A DNA stretch of 64,000 bases from a virus. The position numbers and the translations under genes are program-made. Below, piece after piece: positions 25,344 through 54,395 of the stretch. A model generated the notes under the pieces. It was not told the DNA's origin and searched no databases. It worked only from the letters and a program-made list of their open reading frames with translations. The DNA lies in IMG/VR virus record IMGVR_UViG_3300025138_011172, positions 1-64,000 of that record; one strand, given 5' to 3'. The first letter of the stretch is position 1, and every line of letters starts with the position of its first letter.

Positions 25344-25344
25344 T

Positions 25345-26694: not shown

Positions 26695-26697
26695 ATT

Positions 26698-27162: not shown

Positions 27163-27167
27163 AAAAT

Positions 27168-28657: not shown

Positions 28658-29305
28658 ATGAAAATACTTTACGTTTTTGTAGCACATATAGATGATTTAG
28701 AATTTTCATGTTTAGGATATTTACTTAATTCTAAATATGATAAAATAAAAGTAATTATAGCTACTACATGGGAAGCTAAAGAAAAAATATTTCAAAAAAA
28801 TCTAAAATTATTAAAAAGTAATATAAATAAAAAAAATTTAATTAAACATATTGATTTAGAATATATTAATTTAGGATTTGAACAGAGAGTAATTCCTACA
28901 CATTTTGATAAAGTTAAGGATAAATTTTATAAAAAAATTGATTTTAATAGTGATTTTGATATATTAACCCATGATATAAATGACGCTCATACAGATCATA
29001 GATCCTTATATGATATTTCATTAGGTCTTTACAAATATGCTAATAAGTTTATTACAATTTATAGCCCTGAAGCTATTAACTTTAAACCTAATTATTTTGT
29101 AGAATTATCAAAGGAACAAAATGATCTAAAAAAAGACCTATTAAATAACTATAACTTTAATGAAGAACAATCATATGCTCAAAAAGGTAGTTATTTTAAT
29201 GATAATAGAATAGATTTACCAACACATTTTGCACTTGAAAACTTTCATGGAAAAGATATAGAAAGTTGTGAAATATACAAAATACACAAATGGTTACAAA
29301 ATTAA
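28658..29305 (+). CDS. PIG-L/LmbE-family deacetylase
   Basis: A 215-residue protein. The zinc/catalytic motif AHIDDLEFSCLGYL (residues 9-22) corresponds to the AHPDD motif, and HDINDAHTDHRSLYDIS to the second metal-binding histidine motif. PIG-L enzymes remove N-acetyl groups from amino sugars. In this island it probably deacetylates an N-acetyl sugar before a further substitution. Pro-to-Ile in AHPDD is a small deviation. Confidence 0.78.
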   Translation: MKILYVFVAHIDDLEFSCLGYLLNSKYDKIKVIIATTWEAKEKIFQKNLKLLKSNINKKNLIKHIDLEYINLGFEQRVIPTHFDKVKDKFYKKIDFNSDFDILTHDINDAHTDHRSLYDISLGLYKYANKFITIYSPEAINFKPNYFVELSKEQNDLKKDLLNNYNFNEEQSYAQKGSYFNDNRIDLPTHFALENFHGKDIESCEIYKIHKWLQN

Positions 29306-30957: not shown

Positions 30958-31448
30958 ATATAGAAGAATATGATATTATCCAAATAAAAGAAAATAATAA
31001 TCAAATTGCTATTGATTTTGATGGTGTAATTCACAAAAATTCTAAAGGGTTTTATGATGGAACTGTATACGATCCCCCTATTGAAGGAGCAATTGAAACC
31101 ATTAAAAAACTTTCAGAAAAATATACAATAGTTATTTTTACAGCTAAGGTAAAACCTGATAGACCTTTAGTAAATGGTAAAACAGGTGAGGAATTAATTT
31201 GGGAATGGCTTGATAAATATAAAATTTCTTCGTATATTAAAGAAATTACGTGTGAAAAACCACGAGCAGTAGTTTACATAGATGATAGAGCCATTGGGTT
31301 TAAAGATTGGAATTCTTGTTTAATTGAATTAAAAACTATAGAAGAAGAAAGAGAAAGATTAATTCAACAAAGTAAAACTTTATTTCAAAAAATGGAAGAA
31401 TTTTTTATAAAAACTTTAAGTGATTTAAATATATTAAAAGAAAAGTAG
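30954..31448 (+). CDS. HAD-like phosphatase/hydrolase
   Basis: A 164-residue HAD-fold protein. Motif I is AIDFDGVIHKN (nucleophile Asp, about 21-31), followed by TIVIFTAKV as motif II region and VVYIDDRAIGF as motif IV. In ulosonate pathways a phosphatase removes phosphate before CMP activation (as KdsC does), and this gene directly follows the fusion enzyme with an ATGA overlap. Substrate not provable. Confidence 0.7.
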   Translation: MNIEEYDIIQIKENNNQIAIDFDGVIHKNSKGFYDGTVYDPPIEGAIETIKKLSEKYTIVIFTAKVKPDRPLVNGKTGEELIWEWLDKYKISSYIKEITCEKPRAVVYIDDRAIGFKDWNSCLIELKTIEEERERLIQQSKTLFQKMEEFFIKTLSDLNILKEK

Positions 31449-31451
31449 TAA

Positions 31452-32246
31452 ATGCACAGTAATACTAATATTTTAAGAAACCGAATGCTTCAATATGAAG
31501 ATATCCCTGATAGATTAAGAGTTTTACAAGATTCCTATAAAAATGAAACTTGCTACATAATATCCGCTGGACCTTCTTTAAAAAATTACTCTAAAGAATA
31601 TTTAAAAGAAAAATTAGATGGAAAGTTAGTTATAAGTATAAAACAAGCTTATAATGTTTTACAAGAAATAGCAGATTTTCATGTTTTAAATTTTACAAAT
31701 TTTCAACCCTATAATTATGTTAATGAAGATAGTATAGTAGTTTGGGAGGTATTTGAACAGTTCCACCCAGATATGATACTGCAAAATAATTTAAAGTGTG
31801 AATTAATGTTACCAGTTACAGGAAATCATAACCCTGATATTATTACTAGAATAAATGAATCACAGGCAGGTAAATTAAGTTTTGAAAATTTTACTTTAGA
31901 TAAAACTTTAGATAGAATGTATGGTCCTGGAATAATGTATGAAACTGTAATACATTTAGCTTTATACTTAGGGGTAAATAAAATTATAACTTTAGGATGG
32001 GACATAGGAGATGTTAGTAAATTCAATGGAAATGATCTAAGAGAAGATGTATGGCAAGACCATTTCTATGAAGACACATCAGAAAAAATGGCGTATGCTC
32101 CTACACCTATGAACTTTCATGAAGTAAATACTGTAGTAAATTCAACAGAATATTTAAATAAATGGTTAAAATCAAAAGGAGTTGAACTTAATATAATTTC
32201 AGATATTAACCCATCACATAAATCAATAAAAAGAACTAAATTATGA
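31452..32246 (+). CDS. DUF115/GT42-like protein
   Basis: A 264-residue protein. CYIISAGPSLKNYSKEYL matches the nucleotide-binding start of DUF115/MAF and GT42 sialyltransferase-like proteins (aGxGPSL). MYGPGIMYETVIHLALYLGV followed by KIITLGWDIGD matches their second half (a helix, then a strand with GxD). Such proteins act on CMP-activated nonulosonates or related donors. Substrate unknown. Confidence 0.6.
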   Translation: MHSNTNILRNRMLQYEDIPDRLRVLQDSYKNETCYIISAGPSLKNYSKEYLKEKLDGKLVISIKQAYNVLQEIADFHVLNFTNFQPYNYVNEDSIVVWEVFEQFHPDMILQNNLKCELMLPVTGNHNPDIITRINESQAGKLSFENFTLDKTLDRMYGPGIMYETVIHLALYLGVNKIITLGWDIGDVSKFNGNDLREDVWQDHFYEDTSEKMAYAPTPMNFHEVNTVVNSTEYLNKWLKSKGVELNIISDINPSHKSIKRTKL

Positions 32247-33115
32247 GTAAAATAACAAATTGTATATCATCATTTAATAACTTAAACTATGTTAAATTAG
32301 CTGTTAAATCAGTTAGAGAAAATTCTTATTATAAAGATTCACCATTAATTGTTTTAGCTGAAAATTGTCAAGATGGGACTGATGAATGGTTAAAAGAAAA
32401 TGCTAAAAAATGGGGTATAGAATATTATATTGAAAAAAACAAAACCCCTATGGGCATAGGAGGTGGGATGAATTTTTGTGCTAAAAGAGTTAAAACAGAA
32501 TTTATTAATTTTATACATGCTGATTTTTATGTGTCTAAGAATTGGGATTTAGAATTATTAAAAACATTTGATAAATATCCAAATCAAAGAATGATGGTAT
32601 TTAGTCATAGAGTTCAACCTGATATTTTTAATGAAGAAAGCAGGTCTGGTACAGTTATAGTCCCTATGGATGAATTTGGAGAATATCATCATAATTTTAA
32701 TGAAAAATATTTTTTAAGATGGGCTGAGGAATTTTCATCATTAAATAACTTTGAAATTAAAAAAAGTGAAGGAGTTTCAGGATTAATCCGTAAAAGAGAT
32801 TGGGATTATATCGGAGGGAATGACGATAGGTTTGCCCCTGCTTATTGGGAGGATGCAGATTTATTTATTAGAATGATTAATGAAAGTTATAAATTTGTTT
32901 TAACCTCACAATCAGTAGTTTTTCATTTTGCTTCAAGAGCAAGTAGATTTCCTGATGATAACTTAACAACTAGACCAGTTAATCTAGCAGAAATAGAACA
33001 AAGAAGCACTCAAAGATTTATTGAAAAATACGGACAATTACCTGGGAGAGATGAAAATGATTTTTATATACCTCTCCAAATAGTAGATGGTTCACCAAAT
33101 AGAATTAATCAATAA
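32243..33115 (+). CDS. GT2-type glycosyltransferase
   Basis: A 290-residue GT-A enzyme. Starts TNCISSFNNLNYVKLAVKSV, has FINFIHADFYVSKNWD as the DXD-like site, and GVSGLIRKRDWDYIGGNDDR plus YWEDADLFIRMI as the catalytic-base region. Similar in layout to the GT2 gene at 37424, so the two may be paralogs. Confidence 0.8.
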   Translation: MSKITNCISSFNNLNYVKLAVKSVRENSYYKDSPLIVLAENCQDGTDEWLKENAKKWGIEYYIEKNKTPMGIGGGMNFCAKRVKTEFINFIHADFYVSKNWDLELLKTFDKYPNQRMMVFSHRVQPDIFNEESRSGTVIVPMDEFGEYHHNFNEKYFLRWAEEFSSLNNFEIKKSEGVSGLIRKRDWDYIGGNDDRFAPAYWEDADLFIRMINESYKFVLTSQSVVFHFASRASRFPDDNLTTRPVNLAEIEQRSTQRFIEKYGQLPGRDENDFYIPLQIVDGSPNRINQ

Positions 33116-33813
33116 TGTTAAATTATAGTAAAAAATACCCTCTTATTTTCTTCCATTTACCTAAAAATGCAGGAAAGAGTATATGTCAAGCTTTACAAAT
33201 AGATAAAGAATACCACCCACCCAATTTAAACCAAACAGTTTTACTTGGAGATGATATAAAAAATTCTTATACTAATCAACAATGGGCCCAATTATTTAAA
33301 TTTACAATTATTAGAAACCCTTGGGATAGAATGGTATCTTTATATCATTTTAGAAAAAAGGAAAATGATTTATTGATTAGACTTCAAAATGAAGGATTAT
33401 GGGAACCTCAAAACGGGGATTCATCACAAGAAGGGTGGACTTTTAAAAAATGGTTATTAGAACCTAAAGTAACTGGAGTAATGAATCATGAAGTTTTTGT
33501 AGATTACAAAAACATTTTAAAACAACAACCTCAATCAAGCAATTTCTTTAGAACAGCAGCTGAATATATTAATCAACTAGATTTAATTACAGATAGTAAT
33601 GGAATGCTTTATGTTGATTATATTATAAAATATGAAAATTTGACAGAAGAATTAAATAGTATGTTTAACTATTTAAAATTAACACCTTTTGAACTCCCAG
33701 TAATTAATAATTCTAATCATAAAAATTATAGAGAATATTATGATGAAGAAACAAAAGGTTTTATAGGTAGATTATTTAATAAAGATATAAATTATTTTGG
33801 ATATGAATTTTAA
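33115..33813 (+). CDS. carbohydrate sulfotransferase family protein
   Basis: A 232-residue protein of the sulfotransferase-2 (chondroitin/heparan sulfotransferase-like) type. The PAPS-binding motifs are FFHLPKNAGKSICQAL (about 11-26) and FTIIRNPWDRMVSLYHF (about 62-78). The C-terminal YIIKYENLTEELNSMFNYL is also typical. It would sulfate a sugar of the glycan built by this island. It shares one base with the previous gene. Confidence 0.8.
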   Translation: MLNYSKKYPLIFFHLPKNAGKSICQALQIDKEYHPPNLNQTVLLGDDIKNSYTNQQWAQLFKFTIIRNPWDRMVSLYHFRKKENDLLIRLQNEGLWEPQNGDSSQEGWTFKKWLLEPKVTGVMNHEVFVDYKNILKQQPQSSNFFRTAAEYINQLDLITDSNGMLYVDYIIKYENLTEELNSMFNYLKLTPFELPVINNSNHKNYREYYDEETKGFIGRLFNKDINYFGYEF

Positions 33814-34648
33814 AATACAAATAATAATATGTGGTTGGTGGTTTGATAAATTTGATAACCAGGAAGGTCAAACAGATTTTATTGAATCCCTAAAATGGAT
33901 TAATGATAGTAATGATAATATAAATGTTTTTTGGGCATGTCATAAAGACCCAATTCCATTAGTAAAAGATAATTTTGAATGGAAGTTATATGAAAATGTA
34001 GGACTAGAATGGGGGGCTTATGATAAAGCTTTTAATACCCTAAATTTAGATGATGATACTTTTGTGTTTTGCATACAAGATGATATGCTTATTAAAGATT
34101 GGGGGTTTATTAATGCCTGTGTTGACTATCTAAAAGATGATCAAATTAAAATAATAGGTAATGGGTTTAACTATCCTTATAATATGACTCCAAATGAAGA
34201 AGCTAGACTTAGTTATTGGTTAAAAACTAATGATCGTTGGGTTGATTACGTAAAAACTGAAAATCAACATATGTTTAATACACCAGTAAATTGTTTATCT
34301 ATTAGGGGTAGTTTTTTAGCTACACGATATAAACACATTAAGTTAATAAATGGGTTTGAATATGTAAATAAATCTTTAGAAGAAGGTATAAAAGAAGATG
34401 GAACAAAGTTTTTATTAATTGACCCTTTTGGAAATACTTCTCTCTATTTGAATGCTTATAAATTTTCAAAATATTTTGGTAATGCTGGATTTAAGTGGTT
34501 ATCAAATACTTACAGAAGATCTAAATGGATGGTTGAATGTGGGAGAGGAAATATTGATTTACCTCAAGATGAAGAAACCCAACCTTTTGATATACCCCAA
34601 GAATTTTTAATAGATGGATATGAATATGAAGAAGATAAACGTACTTAA
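33797..34648 (+). CDS. putative glycosyltransferase (GT-A-like)
   Basis: A 283-residue protein. KIQIIICGWWFDKFD opens a Rossmann-like strand, and FVFCIQDDMLIKDWGFINAC looks like a DXD site. IRGSFLATRYKHIKLINGFE resembles an acceptor/catalytic loop. The ATG at 33803 is an alternative start. No exact family match from memory; context is the main support. Confidence 0.55.
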   Translation: MDMNFKIQIIICGWWFDKFDNQEGQTDFIESLKWINDSNDNINVFWACHKDPIPLVKDNFEWKLYENVGLEWGAYDKAFNTLNLDDDTFVFCIQDDMLIKDWGFINACVDYLKDDQIKIIGNGFNYPYNMTPNEEARLSYWLKTNDRWVDYVKTENQHMFNTPVNCLSIRGSFLATRYKHIKLINGFEYVNKSLEEGIKEDGTKFLLIDPFGNTSLYLNAYKFSKYFGNAGFKWLSNTYRRSKWMVECGRGNIDLPQDEETQPFDIPQEFLIDGYEYEEDKRT

Positions 34649-35789
34649 ACCTAAATTTAGGACAGAAGAGATTTTAGAAACTATACGAGAATGCCTTGAT
34701 AAAGGATGGACTGGTATGGGATTTAAAACAGAAGAATTTGAAAATGCTTGGAAAGATTATACTGATTTACCAAACTCCCATTTTATTTCTTCTAATACAG
34801 TAGGATTACATTTGGCTTTAAATGTTTTTAAGAAAAAAAATGGATGGGAAGATGGAGATGAAATAATAACAACCCCTCTTACTTTTATTTCAACTAATCA
34901 TTCTATAATGTATGAAAGATTAAAACCAGTTTTTGCTGATGTAGATAAATCTTTATGCTTAGACCCAAAATCAGTTGAATCTAAAATAACTAATAAAACA
35001 AAAGCCGTAATTTACGTAGGTATTGGAGGTAATACTGGACAGTTAGAAGAAATTCAATCCATTTGTAAAAAACACAATTTAAAATTAATCTTAGATGCAG
35101 CCCACATGGCAGGAACTAAAATTAAGAATATGTTTGATGGAATGGGGTACACAACAGAACATGTGGGAAAACAAGCGGATGTTACTGTGTTTAGTTTTCA
35201 AGCTGTAAAAAATCTTCCAACAGCAGATAGTGGAATGATATGTTTTAAAGATAAAGAAGATGATAAATTAGCTAGAAAATTAAGTTGGTTAGGAATTAAT
35301 AAAGATACTTTCAATAGAAGCACTCAGGGATCTTATAAATGGAAATATAATGTTGAAGAAGTTGGGTTTAAATACCATGGAAATTCTATTATGGCTTCCA
35401 TTGGATTAACCCAATTACAATATCTTGATGAAGATAATGATTATAGAAATTATATAGCAGAACAATATATTTCTAACCTTAAGGATATTAAAGGAATTAA
35501 AATAATATATGATTCTCCTTTAGTAGAAAAATCATCAAGACATTTATTTCAAATTAGAGTAGATAAGAATAAAAGAGATTCTATAATCGAACAACTATAT
35601 AAAAATGAAATATACCCAGGTGTTCATTATATTGATAATACAACTTATCCAATGTATAATTATGCTTTTGGATCTTGCCCTAATGCACATCAATTTTCAG
35701 ATGAATTAATTACTTTACCAATCCACTTAGATATAACCTTGGAGGATATAAGTAGAGTTTGTAACGTTTTAATAAATACAATAACATGA
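34626..35789 (+). CDS. DegT/DnrJ/EryC1-type sugar aminotransferase (perosamine-synthase-like)
   Basis: A 387-residue PLP-dependent enzyme. It shows the family opening KPKFRTEEILETIRECLDKG, DEIITTPLTFISTNHSIMYE, the aspartate segment LILDAAHMAGTK, and the PLP lysine in VFSFQAVKNLPTADSGM. The later NDYRNYIAEQYISNL fits as well. Starts at 34614 and 34620 are possible. With the Gmd-like gene at 36466 it would complete GDP-perosamine synthesis (GDP-4-keto-6-deoxymannose to GDP-perosamine). Confidence 0.85.
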   Translation: MKKINVLKPKFRTEEILETIRECLDKGWTGMGFKTEEFENAWKDYTDLPNSHFISSNTVGLHLALNVFKKKNGWEDGDEIITTPLTFISTNHSIMYERLKPVFADVDKSLCLDPKSVESKITNKTKAVIYVGIGGNTGQLEEIQSICKKHNLKLILDAAHMAGTKIKNMFDGMGYTTEHVGKQADVTVFSFQAVKNLPTADSGMICFKDKEDDKLARKLSWLGINKDTFNRSTQGSYKWKYNVEEVGFKYHGNSIMASIGLTQLQYLDEDNDYRNYIAEQYISNLKDIKGIKIIYDSPLVEKSSRHLFQIRVDKNKRDSIIEQLYKNEIYPGVHYIDNTTYPMYNYAFGSCPNAHQFSDELITLPIHLDITLEDISRVCNVLINTIT

Positions 35790-36469
35790 TAAAAAAATAT
35801 GGAGAACCTAAACATTATATAAATAGACCATTGTGTCGATTTGATATAATTAATTACTTTATTGAAAAAAACAATTATCTTAATTATCTAGAAATAGGGG
35901 TTAGAGCTCCTCAAGCTTGTTTTAATAGGATTATTGCTTCACATAAGGATGCAGTAGATCCTGCACCCTTACAACCCGGAGAAATTAACTATCCAGTAAC
36001 ATCAGATGAATTTTTTCAATTATTAGAAAACAACCCAGAAATAAAATATGATATAATTTTTATAGATGGTTTGCATTTATATGAACAAGTTAAGAAAGAT
36101 ATATCTAATTCATTAAACCATCTAACAGATAACGGAACTATAGTAATGCATGATTGTAGTCCACCATCAATTCACCACCAAAGAACTAATTATGGTGATT
36201 ATTCAACACCTGCGGGATCTGATTGGAATGGTACTACATGGAGAGCTTTTGTAGAATTAAGATGTACTAATCCAAATTTAAATATGAGTGTAGTAGATAC
36301 TGATTATGGGGTAGGTATTATCCAAAAAGGTAATCAACAAGTATGGGATAAAGAAAATATTGAAACCTGTATGACTTATGAATATTTAGATAAAAATAGA
36401 AAAGATTTATTAAATTTATTTAATGTAGAACAGTTTGAACAAAATTATAAAACCGGATTTTTAAAATGA
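35786..36469 (+). CDS. class I SAM-dependent methyltransferase (Methyltransf_24-like)
   Basis: A 227-residue protein. LNYLEIGVRAPQACFNRII is the SAM-binding motif I, DIIFIDGLHLYEQVKKDI motif II region, and NGTIVMHDCSPPS the post-II strand. Members act on sugars or small molecules. Here probably a glycan O- or N-methylation. ATGA overlaps on both sides. Confidence 0.75.
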   Translation: MIKKYGEPKHYINRPLCRFDIINYFIEKNNYLNYLEIGVRAPQACFNRIIASHKDAVDPAPLQPGEINYPVTSDEFFQLLENNPEIKYDIIFIDGLHLYEQVKKDISNSLNHLTDNGTIVMHDCSPPSIHHQRTNYGDYSTPAGSDWNGTTWRAFVELRCTNPNLNMSVVDTDYGVGIIQKGNQQVWDKENIETCMTYEYLDKNRKDLLNLFNVEQFEQNYKTGFLK

Positions 36470-37431
36470 AAACAGCACTTGTAACAGGAATAAATGGAAT
36501 GGATGGCAGCCATCTATCAGACTTACTTTTATCAAAGGGATATAAAGTTTTTGGGATGGAAAGAAGGTCATCATCCAAGAATAGAACAAATACTTTACAT
36601 TTAGAGGATAAAGTAACTTTCCTCCAGGGGGACTTAACTGACCAAAACTCACTATTAAGATGTTTAAAAGAGTCTAATCCTGATGAAGTATATAATTTAG
36701 CAGCACAATCATTTGTAGGTGAAAGTTGGAATACTCCAGAACACACCTCTGAAGTAACTGGGTTAGGGGTATTAAGAATATTAGAAGCAATTAGAGAATT
36801 TAACCCAAAAATTAAATTCTACCAAGCAAGTTCATCAGAAATGTTTGGTAGAATGGTTGAAAATCCTGCTAATGAAAATACCCCATTTTACCCGAGAAGC
36901 CCCTATGGAGTATCTAAGTTATATGGACATTGGATAACAAAAAATTATAGAGAATCATATGACATGTTTGCTTGTAGTGGTATTTTATTCAACCATGAAT
37001 CAGAAAAACGAGGAATAGAATTTGTAACTCGAAAAATATCAGATGGGGTAGCTAAAATTAAATTAGGTCTAGCTGATTATATATCTTTGGGTAATTTAGA
37101 TGCTAAAAGAGATTGGGGGTATGCTCCTGATTATGTAGAAGCTATGTGGTTAATGTTACAACAGGAAACCCCAGATGATTATGTTATAGCTACTGGTAAT
37201 ACTTACTCTATTAGAGAATTTTTAGATATTGCTTTTAACCATGTTGGTATTAAAAATTGGGAACCTTATATTAAACAAGATCCAAGATTTATGAGACCTG
37301 CGGAAGTAGATGTATTAAGAGGTGATTTTACAAAAGCTAAAGAAAATTTAGATTGGATTCCTAAAACATCTTTTGTAAATTTAGTGAAGAAAATGGTTGA
37401 TAACGATATTAATTTATTAAATAATGGATAA
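36466..37431 (+). CDS. gmd: GDP-mannose 4,6-dehydratase
   Basis: A 321-residue extended SDR, slightly shorter than cellular Gmd. TGINGMDGSHLSDLLLSKGY binds NADP; EVYNLAAQSFVGESWNTPE is characteristic of Gmd; catalytic residues are in QASSSEMFG and YGVSKLYG. It converts GDP-mannose to GDP-4-keto-6-deoxy-mannose, feeding the aminotransferase at 34626. GDP-mannose would come from the host. Confidence 0.92.
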   Translation: MKTALVTGINGMDGSHLSDLLLSKGYKVFGMERRSSSKNRTNTLHLEDKVTFLQGDLTDQNSLLRCLKESNPDEVYNLAAQSFVGESWNTPEHTSEVTGLGVLRILEAIREFNPKIKFYQASSSEMFGRMVENPANENTPFYPRSPYGVSKLYGHWITKNYRESYDMFACSGILFNHESEKRGIEFVTRKISDGVAKIKLGLADYISLGNLDAKRDWGYAPDYVEAMWLMLQQETPDDYVIATGNTYSIREFLDIAFNHVGIKNWEPYIKQDPRFMRPAEVDVLRGDFTKAKENLDWIPKTSFVNLVKKMVDNDINLLNNG

Positions 37432-38485
37432 AATTACATTTTGTATTCCTAGTAAATCTAATCTTAGATATCTTAAAACTTGTATATCTTCAATTAGAAA
37501 AAATGCTTATAGAAATGATCATGAAATTATAGTATTTGTAGACGAAGATACAGATGGTACTTGTGAATGGTTAAAAGAAAATGCTGATAAATATAATGTA
37601 GATTATTATATTAATTTTAACTTAGGAGATAAATTATTTGGGATTGGTAAAGCCTATGATTATTGTATAGAAAAATCTACTACAGATATTTTTATGATAT
37701 TTCATGCTGATATGATGTTAGGGAAAAATGCAGATTTAAACGCATATAATCAATTAAAATCAAAATCTGTAGTATGTTCTACAAGAATAGAACCTCCACT
37801 TCACCCTAATGGAGGAGAAAAAATATTGCTTGATTTTGGAATGTGGCCTGAAGAATTTAAAGAAGAAGAATTTGATGTTTATGTAAATGAACATTTAGAA
37901 GATACTAAAATAACAGAGGGTATATTTGCCCCGTGGATGATGTATAAAAATGATTTTCTAGAAATTTTAGGAGGACACGACCCAGTAATGCATTCTTGTA
38001 GAGAAGATTCTGATTTATTTAATAGAATGTTATTAGCTGGATTTGATTTTATTCAACCCTGGAATTCTTTAGTATACCATTTAACAGGAAGAGGAGCAGG
38101 TAGTTTTGATGGTGACCCTGAAAGACATGAAAAATGGAAAAAAGATATGAATGATTCAACTTTAGAATTTATTCAAAAATGGGGAAGTAATGTTAATCAT
38201 ACCCCCTTAATGAAACCTATAGTTTCCCCTGTTTATAAAAAATGTGTTAATATTATTAACTCAAATCCACAATTACAAGAAGCGTTAAAACCTTGGTTTA
38301 ATGGAGGAAGAGACATAATAGTTGAAATTGATGGTAATAAATTTACTCAACAAGATTATCAAATAATTCAACAACTCTCAGCGATTATCCAGGATAGTGG
38401 AGAAATTGGTACATTTGAGTTAGGTAATTTAAAAATTACAATTAATAATTTAAATTCATATGAAAAAGATTTAATAAAAATATGA
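37424..38485 (+). CDS. GT2-type glycosyltransferase with C-terminal extension
   Basis: A 353-residue protein. The first roughly 265 residues form a GT-A domain: ITFCIPSKSNLRYLKTCISS, FMIFHADMMLGKNADLN, then HSCREDSDLFNRMLLAGFDF. The last about 85 residues (from about YKKCVNIINSNPQLQEALKP) are a separate small region of unknown role. Overlaps the Gmd gene by eight bases. Confidence 0.8.
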   Translation: MDKITFCIPSKSNLRYLKTCISSIRKNAYRNDHEIIVFVDEDTDGTCEWLKENADKYNVDYYINFNLGDKLFGIGKAYDYCIEKSTTDIFMIFHADMMLGKNADLNAYNQLKSKSVVCSTRIEPPLHPNGGEKILLDFGMWPEEFKEEEFDVYVNEHLEDTKITEGIFAPWMMYKNDFLEILGGHDPVMHSCREDSDLFNRMLLAGFDFIQPWNSLVYHLTGRGAGSFDGDPERHEKWKKDMNDSTLEFIQKWGSNVNHTPLMKPIVSPVYKKCVNIINSNPQLQEALKPWFNGGRDIIVEIDGNKFTQQDYQIIQQLSAIIQDSGEIGTFELGNLKITINNLNSYEKDLIKI

Positions 38486-39408
38486 TAAAAAAAATTGCAG
38501 TTATTACCCCAGTATCCCATTTAGTAGGAATAAAGGAATTATTAGATACTAAAGGAGAAATATTCTACCTAGAGGATAACCCAATAAAATCAAAAGTAAG
38601 AGTACTATTAGAAACTAAAGATATTGATACTATAGTTTGTAATCCTAATCAACAATCATTTAAAATTGATAAACAATTATTAAATAACACTAAAGTAAAA
38701 ATTATAAATTCATGTTCAACTGGGTTAAATCACATTGACTTAGAATATTGTAAATCTCAAAACATTGAAATTCAATGTCATAAAAACGATTATGAATTAA
38801 TAAATCAATTACCATCAACTTCAGAATTAGCTTTTGGGTTAATGGTTTCTTTATTAAGAAATATCCCAAAATGTAATAATCATGTTAAAAATTATGGGTG
38901 GGATTATACTAGGTTCATGGGGAGACAAGTTAAAGATTTAACTATTGGTATTATAGGGTATGGTAGGTTAGGTAAAATGATGAAAAAATATTGTGATGCT
39001 TTTGATGCTAAAACTTATGTTTATGATCCTTACGTTGATATTAAACAAACTTCTTTAAAAGAAATATTTAAAAAATGTGATGTTGTTTCACTCCATGTCC
39101 ATGTTACGAATGAAACAAAATATATGATTTCAGAGGAATTACTTGGATTATCTAAAAAGGGTTTGTATATTATAAACACAAGTAGAGGAGAAATTGTTAA
39201 AGAAGAAGATGTGGTTAAAGCATTAAATAATGGTAAATTAATAGGTTATGGAACAGATGTTATTGAAAATGAATTTGATAATATTAAGGATTCACCAATA
39301 ATAAAAGCAATGAATAAAGGTAAAAATGTTATAGTTACTCCTCATATAGGAGGGATGACAACTGAAGGACAAACAAAAGCGTATAAATGGTCAATAGATA
39401 AATTATAA
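38482..39408 (+). CDS. D-2-hydroxyacid dehydrogenase family protein
   Basis: A 308-residue protein of the D-isomer-specific 2-hydroxyacid dehydrogenase family. The NAD-binding motif is GIIGYGRLGKMMKK, followed by VYDPY; catalytic-domain segments include LYIINTSRGEIVKEEDVV and VTPHIGGMTTEG with the conserved histidine. It would reduce or oxidise a 2-keto/2-hydroxy acid, consistent with a keto-acid sugar route. Pathway position is inferred. Confidence 0.82.
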   Translation: MIKKIAVITPVSHLVGIKELLDTKGEIFYLEDNPIKSKVRVLLETKDIDTIVCNPNQQSFKIDKQLLNNTKVKIINSCSTGLNHIDLEYCKSQNIEIQCHKNDYELINQLPSTSELAFGLMVSLLRNIPKCNNHVKNYGWDYTRFMGRQVKDLTIGIIGYGRLGKMMKKYCDAFDAKTYVYDPYVDIKQTSLKEIFKKCDVVSLHVHVTNETKYMISEELLGLSKKGLYIINTSRGEIVKEEDVVKALNNGKLIGYGTDVIENEFDNIKDSPIIKAMNKGKNVIVTPHIGGMTTEGQTKAYKWSIDKL

Positions 39409-39410
39409 AA

Positions 39411-39971
39411 ATGGAAAAAGTATTAGTAATAATTCCTGCAAAAGCAGATTCAACAAGGTTTATTGGGAAAAATAAACAATTAATCCAAGGTAAAACTTTA
39501 GTAGAACATGCTATTAGTTATGCTAAAAACAGTAAACACCAAGTTAGAATTATAGTATCAACAGAAGATGAAGAAACTAAATTAATAGCTCTTAATAAGG
39601 GGGTTGAAGTAATACATAGAGAAAAAGAATTTATGGGTGATAGAGAGGTAATGGATGTTTATGTAGATGTGTTTGAGAAACTAAAAGATGATAACATTGA
39701 TTATGTTATAGGTTTACAACCAGACAACCCAGATAGGAATGTTACTTTAGATGATGGGTTAGAATATTTTATAGATTTAAAATATGATGATTTAGTTACA
39801 GTTAGTTCTGATGGATCGAGAAATGGAGCTTTAAGAATTACTAGGGCATCACACATTAAATCTGGATATGTTAGTAGAAGAGTAGGTACTATATTAGATA
39901 ATTGTACTAATATTCATTCTAAAAATGATCTTACAAACGCTGAAAAAAATATAAATGAACGAGTATATTAA
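39411..39971 (+). CDS. CMP-ulosonate/nonulosonate cytidylyltransferase-like protein
   Basis: A 186-residue NeuA/KdsB-type nucleotidyltransferase. [20 protein letters not shown] is the P-loop-like signature of CMP-sugar synthetases; [19 protein letters not shown] contains the metal-binding site region. It is short (NeuA is about 220 residues or more). The next gene, a DAHP-synthase-like enzyme, starts 17 bases before its stop, strongly suggesting make-and-activate coupling. Confidence 0.72.
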
Positions 39972-40764
39972 ATCATTAAAAAACCAGGATAAATTAAATA
40001 TATCAATTAACCTTGATAAAAAGTTTAAATGGGAACATTTTAAAATAGCAGGACCCTGTTCAGTAGAGGGAGAAAGTATTATTGAGATTTCAAAAGAAAT
40101 TAAAAAATGTGGAGCAGATGCCTTAAGAGCAGGAGCCTATAAACCTTGTACTTATCCTATTTTAAAAGAAACAAATGGGTGGAAAGAAGGTCTTAGAAAA
40201 GAAGGACTTGAATTACTTAAAGAAGCTAAAAAACAATCAGGTTTACCTATTGTAACTGAAGTAATGGATGCTAGTATGATAGAAGAAGTTAGTGAAGTAG
40301 CAGACATATTTCAAATAGGAACTAGAAATTTTCAAAATTATACACTTTTGGATGCTTTAGGAAAATCTAATACCCCTGTATTATTGAAAAGAGGAACATG
40401 GGGTACTTTAGATGAAATATTAGGAGCATGTGAGCGTATTTTAGTTGGGGGTAATGAAAATATTGCTATATGTTTAAGAGGTGTAGTAGGTATGCCTAAT
40501 TATAGACATATTTTTCCAACAATTAGATGGGCACCTGATTTAATGATGATCCCAGCTTTAAAGGAATTTACTAATATCCCCATTATATATGATCCAAGTC
40601 ATTCTACTGGGTATAGAAATTTTGTTAAACCTATTTCTAGAGCAGCAATAGCTGCAGGTGCCGATGGTTTAATTATTGAAGCTCACCCTACACCTGATGA
40701 ATCTATTAGTGACCCAGCTCAAGCAATTAATTATAGAACTTTAAAAACTATCTTTAATGATTAG
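39955..40764 (+). CDS. DAHP-synthase-like (type I beta) aldol-condensing enzyme with altered substrate motifs
   Basis: A 269-residue TIM-barrel enzyme. [68 protein letters not shown] and [16 protein letters not shown] all match type I beta DAHP synthase. These condense PEP with an aldose phosphate to a 3-deoxy-2-ulosonate. Two conserved motifs differ: KPRT, which contacts erythrose-4-phosphate, is KPCT here (residues 63-66), and ERGIRT is LRGVVG. A different aldehyde substrate is therefore plausible. KDO8P synthase fits less well by motif. Confidence 0.82.
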
Positions 40765-41398
40765 TATTATAATAAGAAATAAAGATGAGTCTGATTTTAT
40801 AGGGCATGCTATTCAATCTTGTGTTGATAACTTTAAAGATCCTGAGATTATAATAGTAGATGATAATTCTCAAGATGATTCTGATAGAGTAATTTCACTG
40901 TTTGATAACACTAATATTAGAATTCATTCTTTACCTAAAAAATATTCCCCAGGATACTCTTTAAACTATGGGGTAAGTGAATGTAATAATAACACAATTT
41001 TAGTCCTTTCAGCCCACTGTCAACTTACAAATTTAGAGGGTTGGGAAAAAAGGGTTAAAACCCAACTAAATGATTATTGTGCTGTTTTTGGGAAACAAAC
41101 CCCAATATATAGAGGTAAAAAAATAACACCTAGGTATATTTGGAGCCATTTTGGGGATACACAAGAAAAAAATTTATTTTCAAAAATTGAACAACGTTAT
41201 TTTTTACATAATGCTTTTTGTTTTTATAATAAAGAATTTTTAGAAAATAACCCATTTGATGAAAAACTTCATGGAAAAGAAGATAGATATTGGGCAATTG
41301 ATATGGTTAAACAAGGGCATAATTACTTATATGACCCTAAACTAAAATGTAATCATTTTTGGACTCCAAGGGGAGCTACATGGAAAGGAATAGGATAA
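40757..41398 (+). CDS. GT2-type glycosyltransferase
   Basis: A 213-residue GT-A enzyme: [32 protein letters not shown] and [20 protein letters not shown] match GT2 donor and catalytic-base motifs. Overlaps the DAHP-synthase-like gene by eight bases. Confidence 0.83.
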
Positions 41399-41409
41399 AA
41401 TAAAAATAC

Positions 41410-42159
41410 ATGAAAATAAAAAATAAAAAATTCACACAACAACATTTAGATAAATGTGATAAAATTAAACAACAGGCTAATATTCAATTTAATTTAACCC
41501 CTGTTAATAATATTTGTTTAATTCTTCAAAAACTAAAAGAATTAAATGATACTGAAGGTCATTATGTTGAATGTGGTACCTATAGAGGAAATACTCTTAT
41601 TCCATCAGCACTGTATTCTTTAAATTATGGGTATTTTAGTGAAAAAAAATTAATAGGTATTGATACATTTAAGGGTTTTCCTAAAACTACACAACATGAT
41701 TATAGAGATCTTCCTAATTATTTTGAAACTTTAAAATCACAAAATTTAATCTCAGAAGATCATTTTAATAAATCAAAACTTAGAACTAAAAATTTTCAGA
41801 GTTTATCACATTTAGAAAATGAATATTTTTTAGATACTCAAGAAGTATTTAACAATTGTAATGAATTCAATAATATTTCTTTATTAAAAGGCACATTTGA
41901 AGAAATAACCCCTACATTTAAAGATAAAATTTCGGTTCTTCATTTAGATGGAGATTTATATAAAAGTTATTTAACATGTTTAGATAATCTATATGATAAT
42001 GTAATTAGTGGGGGTGCAGTAATTTTTGATGAATATTATTCTCATAAATATCCTGGGGCTCGTGTTGCTGTAAATGAATTCTTTTTAGATAAAAAAGGAC
42101 ATTTTGAAAAATATTTAACTGATGAAGGCCATGAAAGATGGTGTTTTATAAAAAAATAA
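41410..42159 (+). CDS. TylF/MycF-type O-methyltransferase
   Basis: A 249-residue methyltransferase. GHYVECGTYRGNTLI is SAM motif I, KLIGIDTFKGFPKT motif II, and VLHLDGDLYKSYLTCLDNL followed by GGAVIFDEYYSHKYPGA carries the metal-binding aspartates seen in TylF. Members methylate sugar hydroxyls, so this likely caps or modifies a glycan. Confidence 0.8.
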   Translation: MKIKNKKFTQQHLDKCDKIKQQANIQFNLTPVNNICLILQKLKELNDTEGHYVECGTYRGNTLIPSALYSLNYGYFSEKKLIGIDTFKGFPKTTQHDYRDLPNYFETLKSQNLISEDHFNKSKLRTKNFQSLSHLENEYFLDTQEVFNNCNEFNNISLLKGTFEEITPTFKDKISVLHLDGDLYKSYLTCLDNLYDNVISGGAVIFDEYYSHKYPGARVAVNEFFLDKKGHFEKYLTDEGHERWCFIKK

Positions 42160-42161
42160 TA

Positions 42162-42779
42162 ATGAGTAAGATTTTATTAATAGGAAATGGCCCCTCAGCT
42201 ATAGAAAAAGAATTAGGATCAAGGATAGATTCAGATGAATTTGATAAAGTTGTTAGGTTTAATAGATGGAAATTTAATGAAGATGGATCAGAGTACGAAA
42301 AAGATCATTCAAAATTTGTAGGTACTAGATGTGATTATTGGGTTATAAATGATTTACATTTAACAGAAACTAAACTAGGAATAAATAAAAGACTTTATTA
42401 TGAATTAGTATTAGTAGTAATGCCTAATTTTAAATTTAATAATAATTTAGTAAATGAAGTTGAAAATAATTACCCTAATATAAAGTTTCTTAGACCCGAA
42501 TTAGAAAATAATGTTAATCAGGTTATTAGTTTCTCTCCATCATGGCCTTCGACAGGTGTTATTGCAATGGAATTTGCTATACAAAATTTTGATGAAGTTT
42601 ATTTACATGGGTTTGATACTTATGATATTAAATATGATACTTTACATTATTTTGAAGGAATAAATGAAACCTATGGTAAAAATGTATTTAAATTTAAAAA
42701 AAGAAAAGATCATACCCCTGAAAAAGAATTACAATATATTAATCATATAATTAAAAACCATAACGTAAAATTTTTATGA
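42162..42779 (+). CDS. GT29 (sialyltransferase)-like protein
   Basis: A 205-residue protein; ATG 42162 chosen over one 24 bases upstream because it directly precedes the fold and clears the previous stop. KILLIGNGPSAIEKELGSRI followed by DKVVRFNRWKF matches sialylmotif L of GT29 (VGNG..L....GxxID..D.VxRfN). SPSWPSTGVIAMEFAIQNFD, then EVYLHGFDTYD, resembles sialylmotif S (TG...A...c.eV...GF). GT29 enzymes use CMP-activated acidic sugars, which fits the cytidylyltransferases in this island. Confidence 0.7.
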   Translation: MSKILLIGNGPSAIEKELGSRIDSDEFDKVVRFNRWKFNEDGSEYEKDHSKFVGTRCDYWVINDLHLTETKLGINKRLYYELVLVVMPNFKFNNNLVNEVENNYPNIKFLRPELENNVNQVISFSPSWPSTGVIAMEFAIQNFDEVYLHGFDTYDIKYDTLHYFEGINETYGKNVFKFKKRKDHTPEKELQYINHIIKNHNVKFL

Positions 42780-43678
42780 AAAAAGCATTAGTAACAGGAG
42801 GAGCTGGTTTTATTGGCTCTAATTTAGTAGATAAGTTAATAAATAAAGGAATAGATGTTATAGTACTAGATGATTTATCCACAGGTAAAATTGAAAATAT
42901 TAACTCAAAAGCAAAATTTTGGAAAACTTCCTTATTAGATTTAACAGATACTTCATTTATTGGGATGGAGATTGATGTAGTATTTCATTTAGCAGCATTA
43001 GCTAGGGTACAACCTTCAATAGAAGATCCAATTAAATATAATAGTATAAATGTGGAAGGTACTCTTAAATTATTATTTGCAGCTCATAAAGCAGGAGTAA
43101 AACGTGTAGTTTATAGTGCTAGTAGTTCTTGTTATGGTAATGCTACTATTTTTCCAACTCCTGAAACCCACCCAACAAATCCATTATCTCCCTATGGTTT
43201 ACAAAAATATATTGGAGAACAATATTGTGAAGTGTTTAGTGAAGTATATGGTTTAGATACTTGTTCGTTAAGATATTTTAATGTATATGGTGAGAGAATG
43301 AATTTAGAAGGAGCTTATTGTTTAGTTATGGGTATATTTGCAAAGCAAATGTTAGATGGTAAACCTTTAACAATTACTAATGATGGAGAACAACTTAGGG
43401 ATTTTACGTATGTAGGTGATGTTGTAGATGCTAATATATTAGCAGCAACCCATAAAAAAAACTTACAAGGAGAATCTTTTAATATTGGGAATTGTGATAA
43501 TTATTCTGTTAATGAAGTAGCAGATATGTTAGGAGGTGAAAAAACTTACGGAGAAAAAAGATTAGAACCCTTTAAAACTTTAGCAGATAATAAAAAAGCT
43601 AAAAATATATTGGGTTGGGATCCAAAAGGAGATTTACCCCAATGGATTAAAAAATATAAAAAAGACTTAGGAATATGA
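42776..43678 (+). CDS. NAD-dependent sugar epimerase/dehydratase
   Basis: A 300-residue extended SDR. TGGAGFIGSNLVDKLINKGI binds NAD, VFHLAALARVQPSIEDP and the catalytic SASSSCYGN ... SPYGLQKYIGEQY follow, then SLRYFNVYGERM. It is most like UDP-glucose/GlcNAc 4-epimerases. It overlaps the GT29-like gene and closes the glycan island. Confidence 0.87.
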   Translation: MKKALVTGGAGFIGSNLVDKLINKGIDVIVLDDLSTGKIENINSKAKFWKTSLLDLTDTSFIGMEIDVVFHLAALARVQPSIEDPIKYNSINVEGTLKLLFAAHKAGVKRVVYSASSSCYGNATIFPTPETHPTNPLSPYGLQKYIGEQYCEVFSEVYGLDTCSLRYFNVYGERMNLEGAYCLVMGIFAKQMLDGKPLTITNDGEQLRDFTYVGDVVDANILAATHKKNLQGESFNIGNCDNYSVNEVADMLGGEKTYGEKRLEPFKTLADNKKAKNILGWDPKGDLPQWIKKYKKDLGI

Positions 43679-49414: not shown

Positions 49415-50752
49415 ATGAAAGATTTTAAAAAATTTATTAAAGAAGCATATTTAGGAAATCCCCTAAATGAAGACAGAAAAGCCACAGAATATATTAAATC
49501 TATTTCAGACCCTGAAGAAAGGGAATCTGAAAGGAAAAGAATGTTTGGTGATGATGAGCTAGATGAAGCAACTGATTTTAATGATCCTGCTTTAATAGCA
49601 GCAAGAGCAGCTCAAATGGCAGATGAAAAAGAAAAAGCTAGACAAGCAGCATTAGATAAAAAATATGGATCCAATTTTATGGATAAATTAGATGCTGAAT
49701 TAGATTTAAAAGCTGAACTTGAAGATCTAAACCAAGAAAGGGAAATGATCATGATTGACATGGAGGAAGAAGCAGAACCAGAAGGGGGACCAATAGCTGA
49801 TAGATATGGTGAAAGACTTAATCAAATTGATCAAAGAATAGCAGATATTCAAGAAGAATTAGATGATTTAAGAATGTATGAATCAGTTAAAGAAATAACT
49901 ACATCCCCTGTATCTGGCACAAAAGCGGGTGTTATTCATTCATTAGATAATAGAAAGTATGTGTTAACAAGTGATATTAAAGGTGCTCAGATTGGAGATT
50001 TTATAAATGTAACTCTTCCTAAAGGAACAGTTATATATAATTTACCTGGTGGAGTATTTGCAGATCATTTTTCTTTAAAGAACAAATATGCAAGTAGATC
50101 ATCAAGCGGCCCACAATATTTTGAAAAGCCTACATTTAGTGGCATATCAATTAGACGAATGCCTGATATTTTAACTGCTATTGAAAATAATAGTAATGTT
50201 ATTGAAGAATCATTAAATGAAGAATTTAAAGTTGGAGATAAAGTAACTTATCTTGGACACCCAGGTGTAATAACTCACACTGAAAAAGACCCAATTGGTA
50301 GAGATTTTGTATCTATATCTTATGATAAAGGTAAGGGTAAAACAAAAGTAAGGATGATTTTAGCTAAAAGTCCTGTTGTTAAAGCTGTTAATGAAATGGA
50401 AGATGAAATGCTATTTATGGATAGAATGTATAAAGATGCAGCTGAAACTTCAATTAATTTAGATGATTTTAAAAGAACCATTAAAGCTACATATGGCAAA
50501 TATGCTGAAGATGATGATACATTAGAATCAGCATATGAAAGGTTTAGAATTACTAGACCAGATCTTGAAGAAGAAAAAGATACTGATGTAGGTGGTGGAG
50601 CTAAACAAGCAATTGGACTTGATATTGATGATGTCCATGGTGGAGATGCTGCACTTGATGATGAAGTAGAAAAAATGGGGTATAATGAATCTAAAAAATT
50701 TGATTTTAAAAAGATGGTTAAAGAAGCTTTAACACCTGACTATCTTAAATAA
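49415..50752 (+). CDS. putative internal/core head protein with capsid-targeting N-terminus
   Basis: A 445-residue acidic protein. The N-terminus MKDFKKFIKEAYLGNPLNE closely resembles the T4 capsid-targeting sequence of internal proteins (MKTYQEFIAEA); I-x-E before Ala (FIKE/A) matches the gp21 protease cleavage rule. A long helical, Glu-rich segment follows (about 60-165), then a small beta domain (EFKVGDKVTYLGHPGVITH), and a C-terminal KKMVKEALTPDYL echo of the N-terminal motif. Likely a scaffold/core or DNA-packaged internal protein. TATTTATA lies at 49392. Confidence 0.65.
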   Translation: MKDFKKFIKEAYLGNPLNEDRKATEYIKSISDPEERESERKRMFGDDELDEATDFNDPALIAARAAQMADEKEKARQAALDKKYGSNFMDKLDAELDLKAELEDLNQEREMIMIDMEEEAEPEGGPIADRYGERLNQIDQRIADIQEELDDLRMYESVKEITTSPVSGTKAGVIHSLDNRKYVLTSDIKGAQIGDFINVTLPKGTVIYNLPGGVFADHFSLKNKYASRSSSGPQYFEKPTFSGISIRRMPDILTAIENNSNVIEESLNEEFKVGDKVTYLGHPGVITHTEKDPIGRDFVSISYDKGKGKTKVRMILAKSPVVKAVNEMEDEMLFMDRMYKDAAETSINLDDFKRTIKATYGKYAEDDDTLESAYERFRITRPDLEEEKDTDVGGGAKQAIGLDIDDVHGGDAALDDEVEKMGYNESKKFDFKKMVKEALTPDYLK

Positions 50753-51294
50753 TGAAAGGTAAAATATTATTTTTTATATTATTAGTTTTAATAGGATGTC
50801 GTAAAATTGATTCTGAGGGTTATAAAACTTACACAATAAAAGAAGGTAAACATCGTTCAACTTACGCATATAATACTTCAAGAGATACAGTTTTTAATTG
50901 GTCTATAATATTTGATTCTACAGCTATTTACACAACCCAAGACTCAGCAAACCAATATGATATTAATAAATTAATTGGGTGGAGTGATTGTGATGAAAAT
51001 CACATGGATTATTCAATTAGGTTTGGGTGGAGATGGTTAAATGATAATCTCGAAATACATTGGTTTAAACATACTAATGGTAGTTTTGATTTTGCTAAAA
51101 TATGTAATGTTAGTTTATGTGAGGCCCATGAGTATTATCTTTCATTAACTGGTTATAAATATAAGTTATGTGTTGATGGAAATTGTGTTAATTTAGATAG
51201 GTCATGTTCTAATGATTATAAAAAATATAAATTATATCCTTATTTTGGGGGTCAAGAAGTTGCACCTTATGATATAAAAATTAAAATAAAATAA
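50752..51294 (+). CDS. predicted lipoprotein
   Basis: A 180-residue protein with a signal peptide and lipobox: KILFFILLVLIGCRKIDSEG, Cys at residue 16. It would be lipidated and sent to the envelope. The mature part is polar with several Cys (KICNVSLCEAHEY, LCVDGNCVNLDRSC) that may form disulfides. First gene of an envelope cassette. Could act in superinfection exclusion, as phage lipoproteins sometimes do; unproven. Confidence 0.7.
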   Translation: MKGKILFFILLVLIGCRKIDSEGYKTYTIKEGKHRSTYAYNTSRDTVFNWSIIFDSTAIYTTQDSANQYDINKLIGWSDCDENHMDYSIRFGWRWLNDNLEIHWFKHTNGSFDFAKICNVSLCEAHEYYLSLTGYKYKLCVDGNCVNLDRSCSNDYKKYKLYPYFGGQEVAPYDIKIKIK

Positions 51295-51584: not shown

Positions 51585-54395
51585 ATGAAAAAAATATTAT
51601 TTAGTTTTGTAACAGTTCTATGCTTATTTTCAACTGTTAATTTTTCACAAACTGTAGCACCAGTTACTTTCAGACTAGATCTAAATGATGTCATAAGTAA
51701 TGTACCTAATTCTGATTCAGCACAAGTATTTGTACAAACAAATGTTGCCAGTTGGGTTGATATACCAATGGAAGATATTGGTGGAAATGGTATATGGAGA
51801 AAAAATATCAATATAACCCACCCAGCAGGTCAAAATGTAGATGTATTTTATAGGTTTAAAGTAACATCATTTGGATCAAATGGGTTACCTTACATCTTAT
51901 GGGAAGGAGGACCTAATGCAGATACTAGTTGTTTAGCTGACCCAAATGATTATGGATTAGCAGGAGGATTGGTAAGAGAAGTACTAGTACCACAAGAATT
52001 AATTGATAATGGTACTTATGTTAACCCATCAGGAGAATTTAAGTTAACGCATTGTTTTAATATATGTGGTAATGCACCATGCCCACCAGAACCTTGTATT
52101 AATGGTTTAACTTCAACTAACGCCTATCAACAGTGTATTAATGGGGGAGCTCAAACTCTTATAGTTTTTGAATGGCAAACCGACTGCGAAATCCAGTCTG
52201 TTGAATATACTAATGCAGAAGGCGTTGGTCCATTTACATATCTAGTTAATTTTGATGCTTTAAATTTTGGGGTATTTGCGGGAACACTAAATATGCCACC
52301 AAATTGGTCAGTAGAACATCAATTAACAGTTAATTTTGTTGATGGAACACAATCTGCTCCTATTTTTTATACTCCACAACCATGTATTCCAGGTTGCATG
52401 GATCCTAATTCAATATCTTATAATCCATGGGCAACTAACGATGATGGCTCCTGTATCAGCAGTGGTAATAGCGGTGGTTGTGATACAAATGATTTTGAAA
52501 TAACAATATCAATAACTTTAGATAATTGGCCTGGAGAAACCTCTTGGACACTAGTGTCGTTATCCGATGGAGGAATTCCTATACAGATGCCACAAGGGGA
52601 ATATGACTTTGCAGATGTAGGTCAAACATATGATTATACAGTTTGTATTGATAGTTTAGGAGTCGAACTTATTATAAATGATTCATATGGTGATGGTTTA
52701 CAAGGAGGTAACACACCTGGAAATGTTATTATATATAACTGTGATGGCGATACCATATGGGAACTTCCTGCACCAAACTTTGGATCTGTAGCTTATTCAG
52801 GACCTGTACAGGGAAGTGCATGTAGTGGAACAACACCTGTTCTAGGATGTACAGATCCGATGTATCAAGAATTTGATCCTACAGCTAATATAGATGATGG
52901 AAGTTGTTTAACTTCTCACATATTTGGATGTACTGATCCAACATCATTTAACTATGATCCAGTTGCAACAATGCAAGAAATAATTCCTACATGCAACTAT
53001 GAGTTATGGATAGGAGATGCAGCTGCTGATGGTTGGGGCAATTCCTATATTGGTGTAATTCAAGGAACAAATCAATGGACATTTACAATTGGGCCTGGAT
53101 CTTATAATCAAACATTTCCAATAACATTAGACACAGATAAACCTATTGAAGTTTATTATTTTGAAGTAGCAGCACCACAACAATCAGCACAAGAAGTTGA
53201 ATTTCAAACATGGCATAATTCATTTAAACTAACTAATGCAGACGGAGTGGTATTAATACACGAAGGACAAAACCCATTTGCTAATAATGGACAAGGCGCT
53301 TTACAGCCATTTGAATCCCCATTTTATGAAAAATATCAAGCAATACCTTTTTGTGGAGATTTATGTATTCCTGTTATACTCGGATGTACTGATTCAACAT
53401 CATTGAATTATGATCCATTAGCTAACACAGATAATGGTACATGCATTCCAATAATATATGGTTGTACTAATAACTTAGCATTTAATTATGATTCAACAGC
53501 AACAGTAGATGATGGCTCTTGTATAGCAACAATATATGGGTGTACAGATTTAACTTCATTTAATTATAATCCATTAGCAAATGTTGATGACGGTTCTTGT
53601 ATATATTTTGGTTGCACTGATTTAACTGCATTAAATTATGATCCAAATGCTAATGTTGATAATGGTACTTGTATTTACCCAGTTTATGGTTGCACAGACC
53701 CAACTATGTTTAATTATGATCCTAATGCAAATGTAAATGATGGTAGTTGTGTACCTTTTATTTATGGTTGTATGGATCCAACTATGTTTAATTATAACTC
53801 AACTGCCAACACAGATAATGGATCATGTATACCTATAGTATTTGGGTGTATTGATTCAATCGCATTAAATTATGATCCAATGGCAAATACCGATAATGGA
53901 ACTTGTATTATACCAGTAATAGGTTGTACAGATCCAAATGCTTATAATTATGATCCTACAGCTAATGTAACAGATTCTACCTCTTGTTTATATGATGCAG
54001 GTTGTATTACAGGGCCAGGTAATCCTTATTGGCTAAATGATGATTGTTATGCTTGGGTAATTAGTATAGACCCTTATTGTTGTAATGTAGCTTGGGACAA
54101 CAATTGTCAAAATACTTATGATTATTGTGCTTCAAATAGTGGTTGGGTTGGAGTTGAAGATTTAGTTCAAGGTGGAGGTGTAGCTATTTATCCAAACCCT
54201 ACTACAGATAAATTAAATATAGTAAGTTCAAGATTAAATAATACATTTGTAACTATGTATTCAACATCGGGTCAAATAGTTATTAATGAAACTAATAATA
54301 GTGTTATTGATATAAGTCATTTAGAAAATGGAATATACTTTATGAATGTAAAAGTAGGAAAATTAACTTATATTAAAAAAGTAATTAAACAATAA
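51585..54395 (+). CDS. secreted Cys-rich repeat protein with T9SS C-terminal sorting domain
   Basis: A 936-residue protein from ATG 51585; an ATG 18 bases upstream would only add residues ahead of the signal peptide. The signal peptide is MKKILFSFVTVLCLFSTVNF. Then come a beta-sandwich region, two domains with DSYGDGLQGG/DAAADGWGNS, and about eleven repeats of the form GCTDPTSFNYDPLANVDDGSC, common in marine Bacteroidota surface proteins. The last roughly 70 residues (VAIYPNPTTDKLNIVSS ... NGIYFMNVKVGKLTYIKKV) are a type A T9SS sorting domain. It should be exported through the host T9SS. Very unusual in a phage. Confidence 0.85.
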   Translation: MKKILFSFVTVLCLFSTVNFSQTVAPVTFRLDLNDVISNVPNSDSAQVFVQTNVASWVDIPMEDIGGNGIWRKNINITHPAGQNVDVFYRFKVTSFGSNGLPYILWEGGPNADTSCLADPNDYGLAGGLVREVLVPQELIDNGTYVNPSGEFKLTHCFNICGNAPCPPEPCINGLTSTNAYQQCINGGAQTLIVFEWQTDCEIQSVEYTNAEGVGPFTYLVNFDALNFGVFAGTLNMPPNWSVEHQLTVNFVDGTQSAPIFYTPQPCIPGCMDPNSISYNPWATNDDGSCISSGNSGGCDTNDFEITISITLDNWPGETSWTLVSLSDGGIPIQMPQGEYDFADVGQTYDYTVCIDSLGVELIINDSYGDGLQGGNTPGNVIIYNCDGDTIWELPAPNFGSVAYSGPVQGSACSGTTPVLGCTDPMYQEFDPTANIDDGSCLTSHIFGCTDPTSFNYDPVATMQEIIPTCNYELWIGDAAADGWGNSYIGVIQGTNQWTFTIGPGSYNQTFPITLDTDKPIEVYYFEVAAPQQSAQEVEFQTWHNSFKLTNADGVVLIHEGQNPFANNGQGALQPFESPFYEKYQAIPFCGDLCIPVILGCTDSTSLNYDPLANTDNGTCIPIIYGCTNNLAFNYDSTATVDDGSCIATIYGCTDLTSFNYNPLANVDDGSCIYFGCTDLTALNYDPNANVDNGTCIYPVYGCTDPTMFNYDPNANVNDGSCVPFIYGCMDPTMFNYNSTANTDNGSCIPIVFGCIDSIALNYDPMANTDNGTCIIPVIGCTDPNAYNYDPTANVTDSTSCLYDAGCITGPGNPYWLNDDCYAWVISIDPYCCNVAWDNNCQNTYDYCASNSGWVGVEDLVQGGGVAIYPNPTTDKLNIVSSRLNNTFVTMYSTSGQIVINETNNSVIDISHLENGIYFMNVKVGKLTYIKKVIKQ
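52396..53992 (+). repeat. eleven GCTD...NYDP...DDGSC coding repeats
   Basis: Protein repeats of about 21 core residues, one near 52396-52455 and ten between about 52846 and 53992. The final eight are nearly continuous from about 53382. Each has two conserved Cys, a NYDP core and a D(D/N)G(S/T)C end, perhaps a Ca-binding and disulfide-bonded unit. Confidence 0.8.

Follow-up and report, generated by a model that had tools for sequence, protein, structure and literature searches.

The stretch of DNA analysed here (the window) comprises positions 1 to 64,000 of the IMG/VR virus record IMGVR_UViG_3300025138_011172. It contains an intact gene for a protein with a sorting domain of the type IX secretion system (T9SS), hereafter the cargo, followed on the same strand by genes for a predicted outer-membrane beta-barrel, a small membrane protein (TM97) and a thioredoxin-like (Trx-like) protein (Table 1). 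The surroundings are those of a phage: DNA polymerase and clamp-loader genes were recognised with PHROGs, and GroEL/GroES-like genes and many sugar-enzyme genes by eye. The gene for the family B-type phage DNA polymerase seems to be divided, its two ORFs (13093-14772 and 15026-16018) being separated by about 250 bases. Genes for glycosyltransferases, sugar-nucleotide enzymes and related enzymes, named by eye, span about 20 kb (23904-43678); they include epimerases, an aminotransferase, and DAHP-synthase-like and CMP-Kdo-synthetase-like genes. A 1177-aa protein with GGG-rich repeats (4845-8378; GC up to 0.41) is probably part of the virion, as a fibre or adhesin-like protein. Directly upstream of the cargo and its partners lies a lipoprotein-like gene (50752-51294, lipobox IGC), which is not conserved as a neighbour in related loci.

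Table 1 Cargo, cargo domains and partner genes in the window
Feature	Start	End	Strand	Basis or remark
T9SS cargo, 936 aa	51585	54395	+	Intact ORF; HMM matches, modelled fold, repeat profile
GCTD repeat region, 11 repeats of ~22 aa	52392	53984	+	Repeat profile; repeats common to host surface proteins
CYAW domain, Cys-rich, ~residues 806-851	54000	54137	+	Found only in cassette-bearing contigs among genomes searched
T9SS type A sorting domain (Por_Secre_tail)	54186	54392	+	TIGR04183, PF18962, structure
Predicted outer-membrane beta-barrel, 360 aa	54395	55477	+	AF2 model, Foldseek; signal-peptide-like start (by eye)
TM97, 97 aa, one membrane helix and coiled-coil tail	55488	55781	+	64% mean column identity
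Trx-like, exported thioredoxin-fold protein, 108 aa	55783	56109	+	WNxAN in place of WCxxC

From N- to C-terminus, the cargo consists of a signal-peptide-like start, variable beta domains, the repeats, the CYAW domain and the sorting domain, and its mature part has 42 cysteines. The preliminary description had attributed to it a signal peptide, about eleven GCTD...DGSC repeats and a type A sorting domain, and all three were recovered, the first as a signal-peptide-like start. The N-terminus, MKKILFSFVTVLCLFSTVNFSQ, is signal-peptide-like as judged by eye; an alternative in-frame ATG at 51567 would add six residues, and the start used here suits the signal peptide better. The repeat profile gave 11 copies in the record, those listed all lying inside the cargo ORF. 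The C-terminus matched TIGR04183 (E 2.2e-12, 46.8 bits against a curated cut-off of 23) and PF18962 (E 8.9e-14, 52 bits against 27), the latter being the only PF18962 match within the 65.6-kb record. The type B profile TIGR04131, which the preliminary description had proposed for the check together with TIGR04183, did not match the cargo. In the AlphaFold2 model the C-terminal end folds as a beta-sandwich, and Foldseek aligned this modelled domain to the C-terminal domain (CTD) of NucA in a T9SS complex (8glk_D; TM 0.81 of target, rmsd 2.5, 32% identity). On a sorting-domain score above the cut-off and a modelled CTD fold, we classify the cargo as a putative T9SS type A protein.

Across related loci the complete cargos are 654 to 1645 aa long and, as judged by eye, begin with a putative N-terminal Sec signal peptide. 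Their front part varies by locus, with MAM domains in some members, and the number of GCTD repeats differs, whereas the CYAW cysteine domain that precedes the tail is near-invariant; this domain was absent from the 297 other genomes searched. GCTD repeats also occur within three virion-type proteins (L033, L035, L036) and may thus be general adhesion modules; one such protein sits among tail-fibre-like genes in the Kyanoviridae record MH319765. We considered whether the cargo might itself be a virion protein, which is unlikely given its export signal and CTD, yet the repeats do occur in proteins of that type.

The barrel gene, which shares 1 nt with the stop codon of the cargo gene, is the most reliable marker of the gene set. 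Confidence in the AF2 model of the barrel is moderate (pLDDT 71.8), and its Foldseek matches in the PDB are almost all outer-membrane barrels, the best being the porin NanC. The modelled fold, together with an export signal judged by eye, is that expected of an outer-membrane beta-barrel, and the protein is very probably located in that membrane. It is more conserved than the sorting domain (median pairwise identity 62% vs 35%). At least 585 relatives were found in IMG/VR and none by tblastn among 50,697 deposited phages; bacterial genome assemblies gave only five matches, all in MAG contigs, and three of these contigs fall in Bacteroidota bins (Flavobacteriales, Winogradskyella, Sphingobacteriales). 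The BFVD search returned one structural homologue, A0A516LKJ4 (E 2e-24, TM 0.66, 23% identity). A relationship to PorV, the T9SS shuttle barrel, was rejected: the T9SS complex chain 8gl6_F (367 aa), which we take to be PorV, ranked only 32nd (E 0.012) among generic barrels. TM97 was likewise not accepted as an Rz-type spanin or holin, the PHROG matches being weak (best Rz-like spanin E 0.01, with 5 of 23 members; holin E 0.068). The Trx-like protein has weak thioredoxin HMM matches below the cut-off and does not pass as a true thioredoxin, WNxAN standing where the CxxC active site should be; because CxxC is missing, it was also ruled out as a disulfide catalyst for the cysteines of the cargo.

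Relatives of the cargo were first found in 34 viral contigs, and in nearly all loci with enough DNA their neighbours are those of the window, namely the 360-aa, 97-aa and 108-aa thioredoxin-like proteins. Sufficient flanking sequence was available for 58 barrel loci. Every one of them has a cargo (54 with the CTD and four with a second tail described below), 57 have the Trx-like gene and 52 have TM97. These cassette genes lie on one strand throughout, in three main gene orders, and 25 cargo/barrel overlaps of 4 nt were counted among the cassette loci. The next commonest neighbour family occurs in only 36 of 108 loci. A gene order that permutes while membership stays constant points to a functional unit. 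Some 100 further contigs show the same set of neighbours, which excludes a chimeric assembly. The initial reading of the cargo as a phage gene is upheld. In 47/108 loci (16/24 in the portal lineage defined below) a gene for a holin, an amidase or a DUF5675 protein is found at most 6 kb from the cassette. About 30 related loci have an SNase-like nuclease gene inside the cassette or next to it (for example L019:6539-6907); in the window's phage it lies elsewhere, at 10325-10672.

A T4-type capsid protein (gp23) is encoded in 10/28 long records and the phrog_6547 portal in 24/42 records, with no record having both. On the barrel tree these labels interleave, requiring four changes, at least two of them on well-supported branches; therefore the cassette, or at least the barrel, moves between unrelated phages. 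The preliminary description had missed that the cargo is one of four genes in a conserved envelope cassette common to such phages.

In six phage cargos (L016, L018, L019, L020, L023, L024) the place of the CTD is taken by a C-terminal tail of 40 aa, VTDLLGRP..LFYIYDDGTVEKKI, written VTDLLGRE..LFYIYDDGTVEKKI across the host loci L131-L140 and L143 and phage cargos. A single PF18962 domain is present in 25 of 28 phage records, and the other three (L018, L019, L023) carry this second tail. Host proteins carry the tail at their very end, with 0-3 residues left before the stop; the proteins are varied, and several have signal-peptide-like starts. Within the order to which the NAT55 Flavobacteriales MAG belongs, 69 of 198 genomes have the tail, with scored copies per genome reaching at least 37, and Pfam and NCBIfam have no family for it. 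The tail is a candidate new sorting signal that swaps with the T9SS CTD in phage cargos. We also looked for co-evolution of barrel and CTD as a sign of contact. Their distance correlation (0.74) was the highest of the pairs, but the two genes abut, and in the 10 loci where they are separated the value was 0.66, not above some other pairs. A single barrel clade carries either tail (L013, L014 vs L019, L023, L024), an argument against strict recognition.

The genomes in which GCTD repeats abound are nearly the same as those with the second tail; most measure 0.8-2 Mb, and 65 carry both (Fisher p 1e-44). One host protein combines 11 GCTD repeats with the CTD (L149) and another combines four repeats with the second tail (L143). 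Judged by these modules, the repeats and tail of the cargo imitate the hosts' own surface proteins, a point that the preliminary description had also passed over. Its premise that the probable hosts possess a T9SS held, as SprA is encoded by 30 of 32 likely-host genomes; PF18962 domains are present in all 32, with 25-62 in each. None of 55 window ORFs has a Shine-Dalgarno-like site upstream, where only about one would be expected by chance. Absence of such sites is usual in Bacteroidota, and the window fits this group. From shared modules, MAG binning and T9SS, with the order taken from the title of the NAT55 Flavobacteriales MAG, the likely hosts are small-genome marine Flavobacteriales encoding SprA.

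The best explanation, to which we give a little less than an even chance, is that the cassette serves surface display. The cargo would be made in the infected cell and exported through Sec, after which the host's T9SS would take it across the outer membrane via its C-terminal domain and leave it on the cell surface. In view of the tail, host SprA and the export signal, and by established T9SS biology, export is highly probable. We would place the barrel in the outer membrane, TM97 in the inner one and the Trx-like protein in the periplasm. Their probable task is to support the display by stabilising, assembling or anchoring it; we lean slightly towards a physical co-operation of all four products. 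Display probably alters which viruses or partners attach to the infected cell. Most likely the cargo would mask surface receptors or compete for them and thereby keep further virions from adsorbing (superinfection exclusion); the same may hold for progeny that meet cell debris. This role is suggested by a cargo built of host surface-protein modules with a variable front beside a conserved barrel, by the pairing of a changeable outer protein with a membrane partner that stays the same, by the late or lysis-near position and by the precedent of T5 Llp; we hold it tentatively, below the display itself. A bolder reading, possible but doubtful, is that the four products form one phage-encoded envelope-spanning machine whose outer part relies on the host T9SS and which has come to be distributed across unrelated phages, with the second tail as an unrecognised sorting signal of marine Flavobacteriales.

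The position near lysis-type genes also fits a role tied to lysis, in which barrel, TM97 and Trx-like protein span the envelope and weaken or open the outer membrane, with the cargo as the outer part. TM97 has a spanin-like topology and the PHROG matches given above point the same way, but those matches are weak, most other loci have no lysis-type neighbour within the available flank, and late genes cluster anyway. Moreover, no known lysis function requires a T9SS-sorted repeat protein imitating host surface proteins, and we regard this explanation as unlikely. Somewhat less probable still is an aid to uptake (auxiliary metabolism), with the cargo capturing glycans or ions and the barrel acting as a porin that feeds the infected cell. 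NanC, the best match of the barrel, is an acidic-sugar porin, and the N-terminal beta domains of the cargo and the MAM domain of some members could bind ligands; however, the TM score to NanC is low (0.32 of query, 0.50 of target) and generic for small barrels, and the cassette lacks an inner-membrane transporter or enzyme.

The abundance of GCTD repeats in large host surface proteins, and their presence in virion-type proteins, would suit adhesion, whereby displayed repeats stick infected cells together or to particles and bring new hosts to released progeny. This leaves the invariant barrel and two small proteins unexplained. We rank it slightly below the uptake role. That a host surface-protein gene was acquired by the phage and persists with no function for it agrees with the host-like modules of the cargo, but is very improbable: the frames are full-length in about 100 loci, the gene is tightly linked to three others that are phage-only, there has been transfer from one phage lineage to another, and each phage has one cargo.

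Surface display remains the reading we prefer, and the cassette suggests that phage-protein display via host secretion is a regular component of infection in a large marine phage group and not a curiosity of one genome. As a defined set of four genes, the cassette makes surface change in infected Bacteroidota testable; it also links uncultured phages with small-genome marine Flavobacteriales, and the natural domain swap in phage cargos points to an unrecognised protein-sorting tail. In the open-access literature we found no description of the cassette, which is weak evidence as subscription journals and preprints were outside this scope. The cassette and its spread appear new, as does the uncatalogued second tail. 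The preliminary claim of a new way to alter the infected cell surface is partly anticipated and finds no support in the form given, because phage-encoded T9SS cargo as such had already been reported for Cryophage (PMC7468147) and gut BACON phages (PMC6949934).

Compared with host GCTD T9SS cargos of small-genome Flavobacteriales (e.g. L149), the phage cargo has the same repeats and type A sorting domain, whereas the host proteins lack the CYAW domain (in the 297 other genomes) and have no link to a barrel. Like the cassette phages, Cryophage (Bellas et al. 2020) encodes proteins with T9SS type A sorting domains, which its authors presume to be exported by the host, and superinfection exclusion was suggested. 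Unlike the cassette, its cargos are three in number, variable, of enzyme or PA14 type and confined to a single 76-kb phage; the text consulted mentions neither a GCTD protein nor a barrel cassette, nor any spread over several lineages (PMC7468147). The Bacteroidetes phages of gut BACON-phage cluster 2 similarly encode proteins with T9SS sorting domains, located near head genes, one of them fused to BACON repeats. Their repeats are different, and the accessible part of the paper leaves the role open and describes no outer-membrane barrel cassette (PMC6949934). The T5 lipoprotein Llp acts at the outer membrane, where it blocks FhuA and stops adsorption to infected cells and debris (PMC9586334). 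Unlike the cargo, it is a small FhuA-binding lipoprotein that is not a T9SS client and has neither repeats nor a partner barrel, and the likeness lies in the proposed role only, that of a phage protein at the outer membrane that stops adsorption (PMC9586334).
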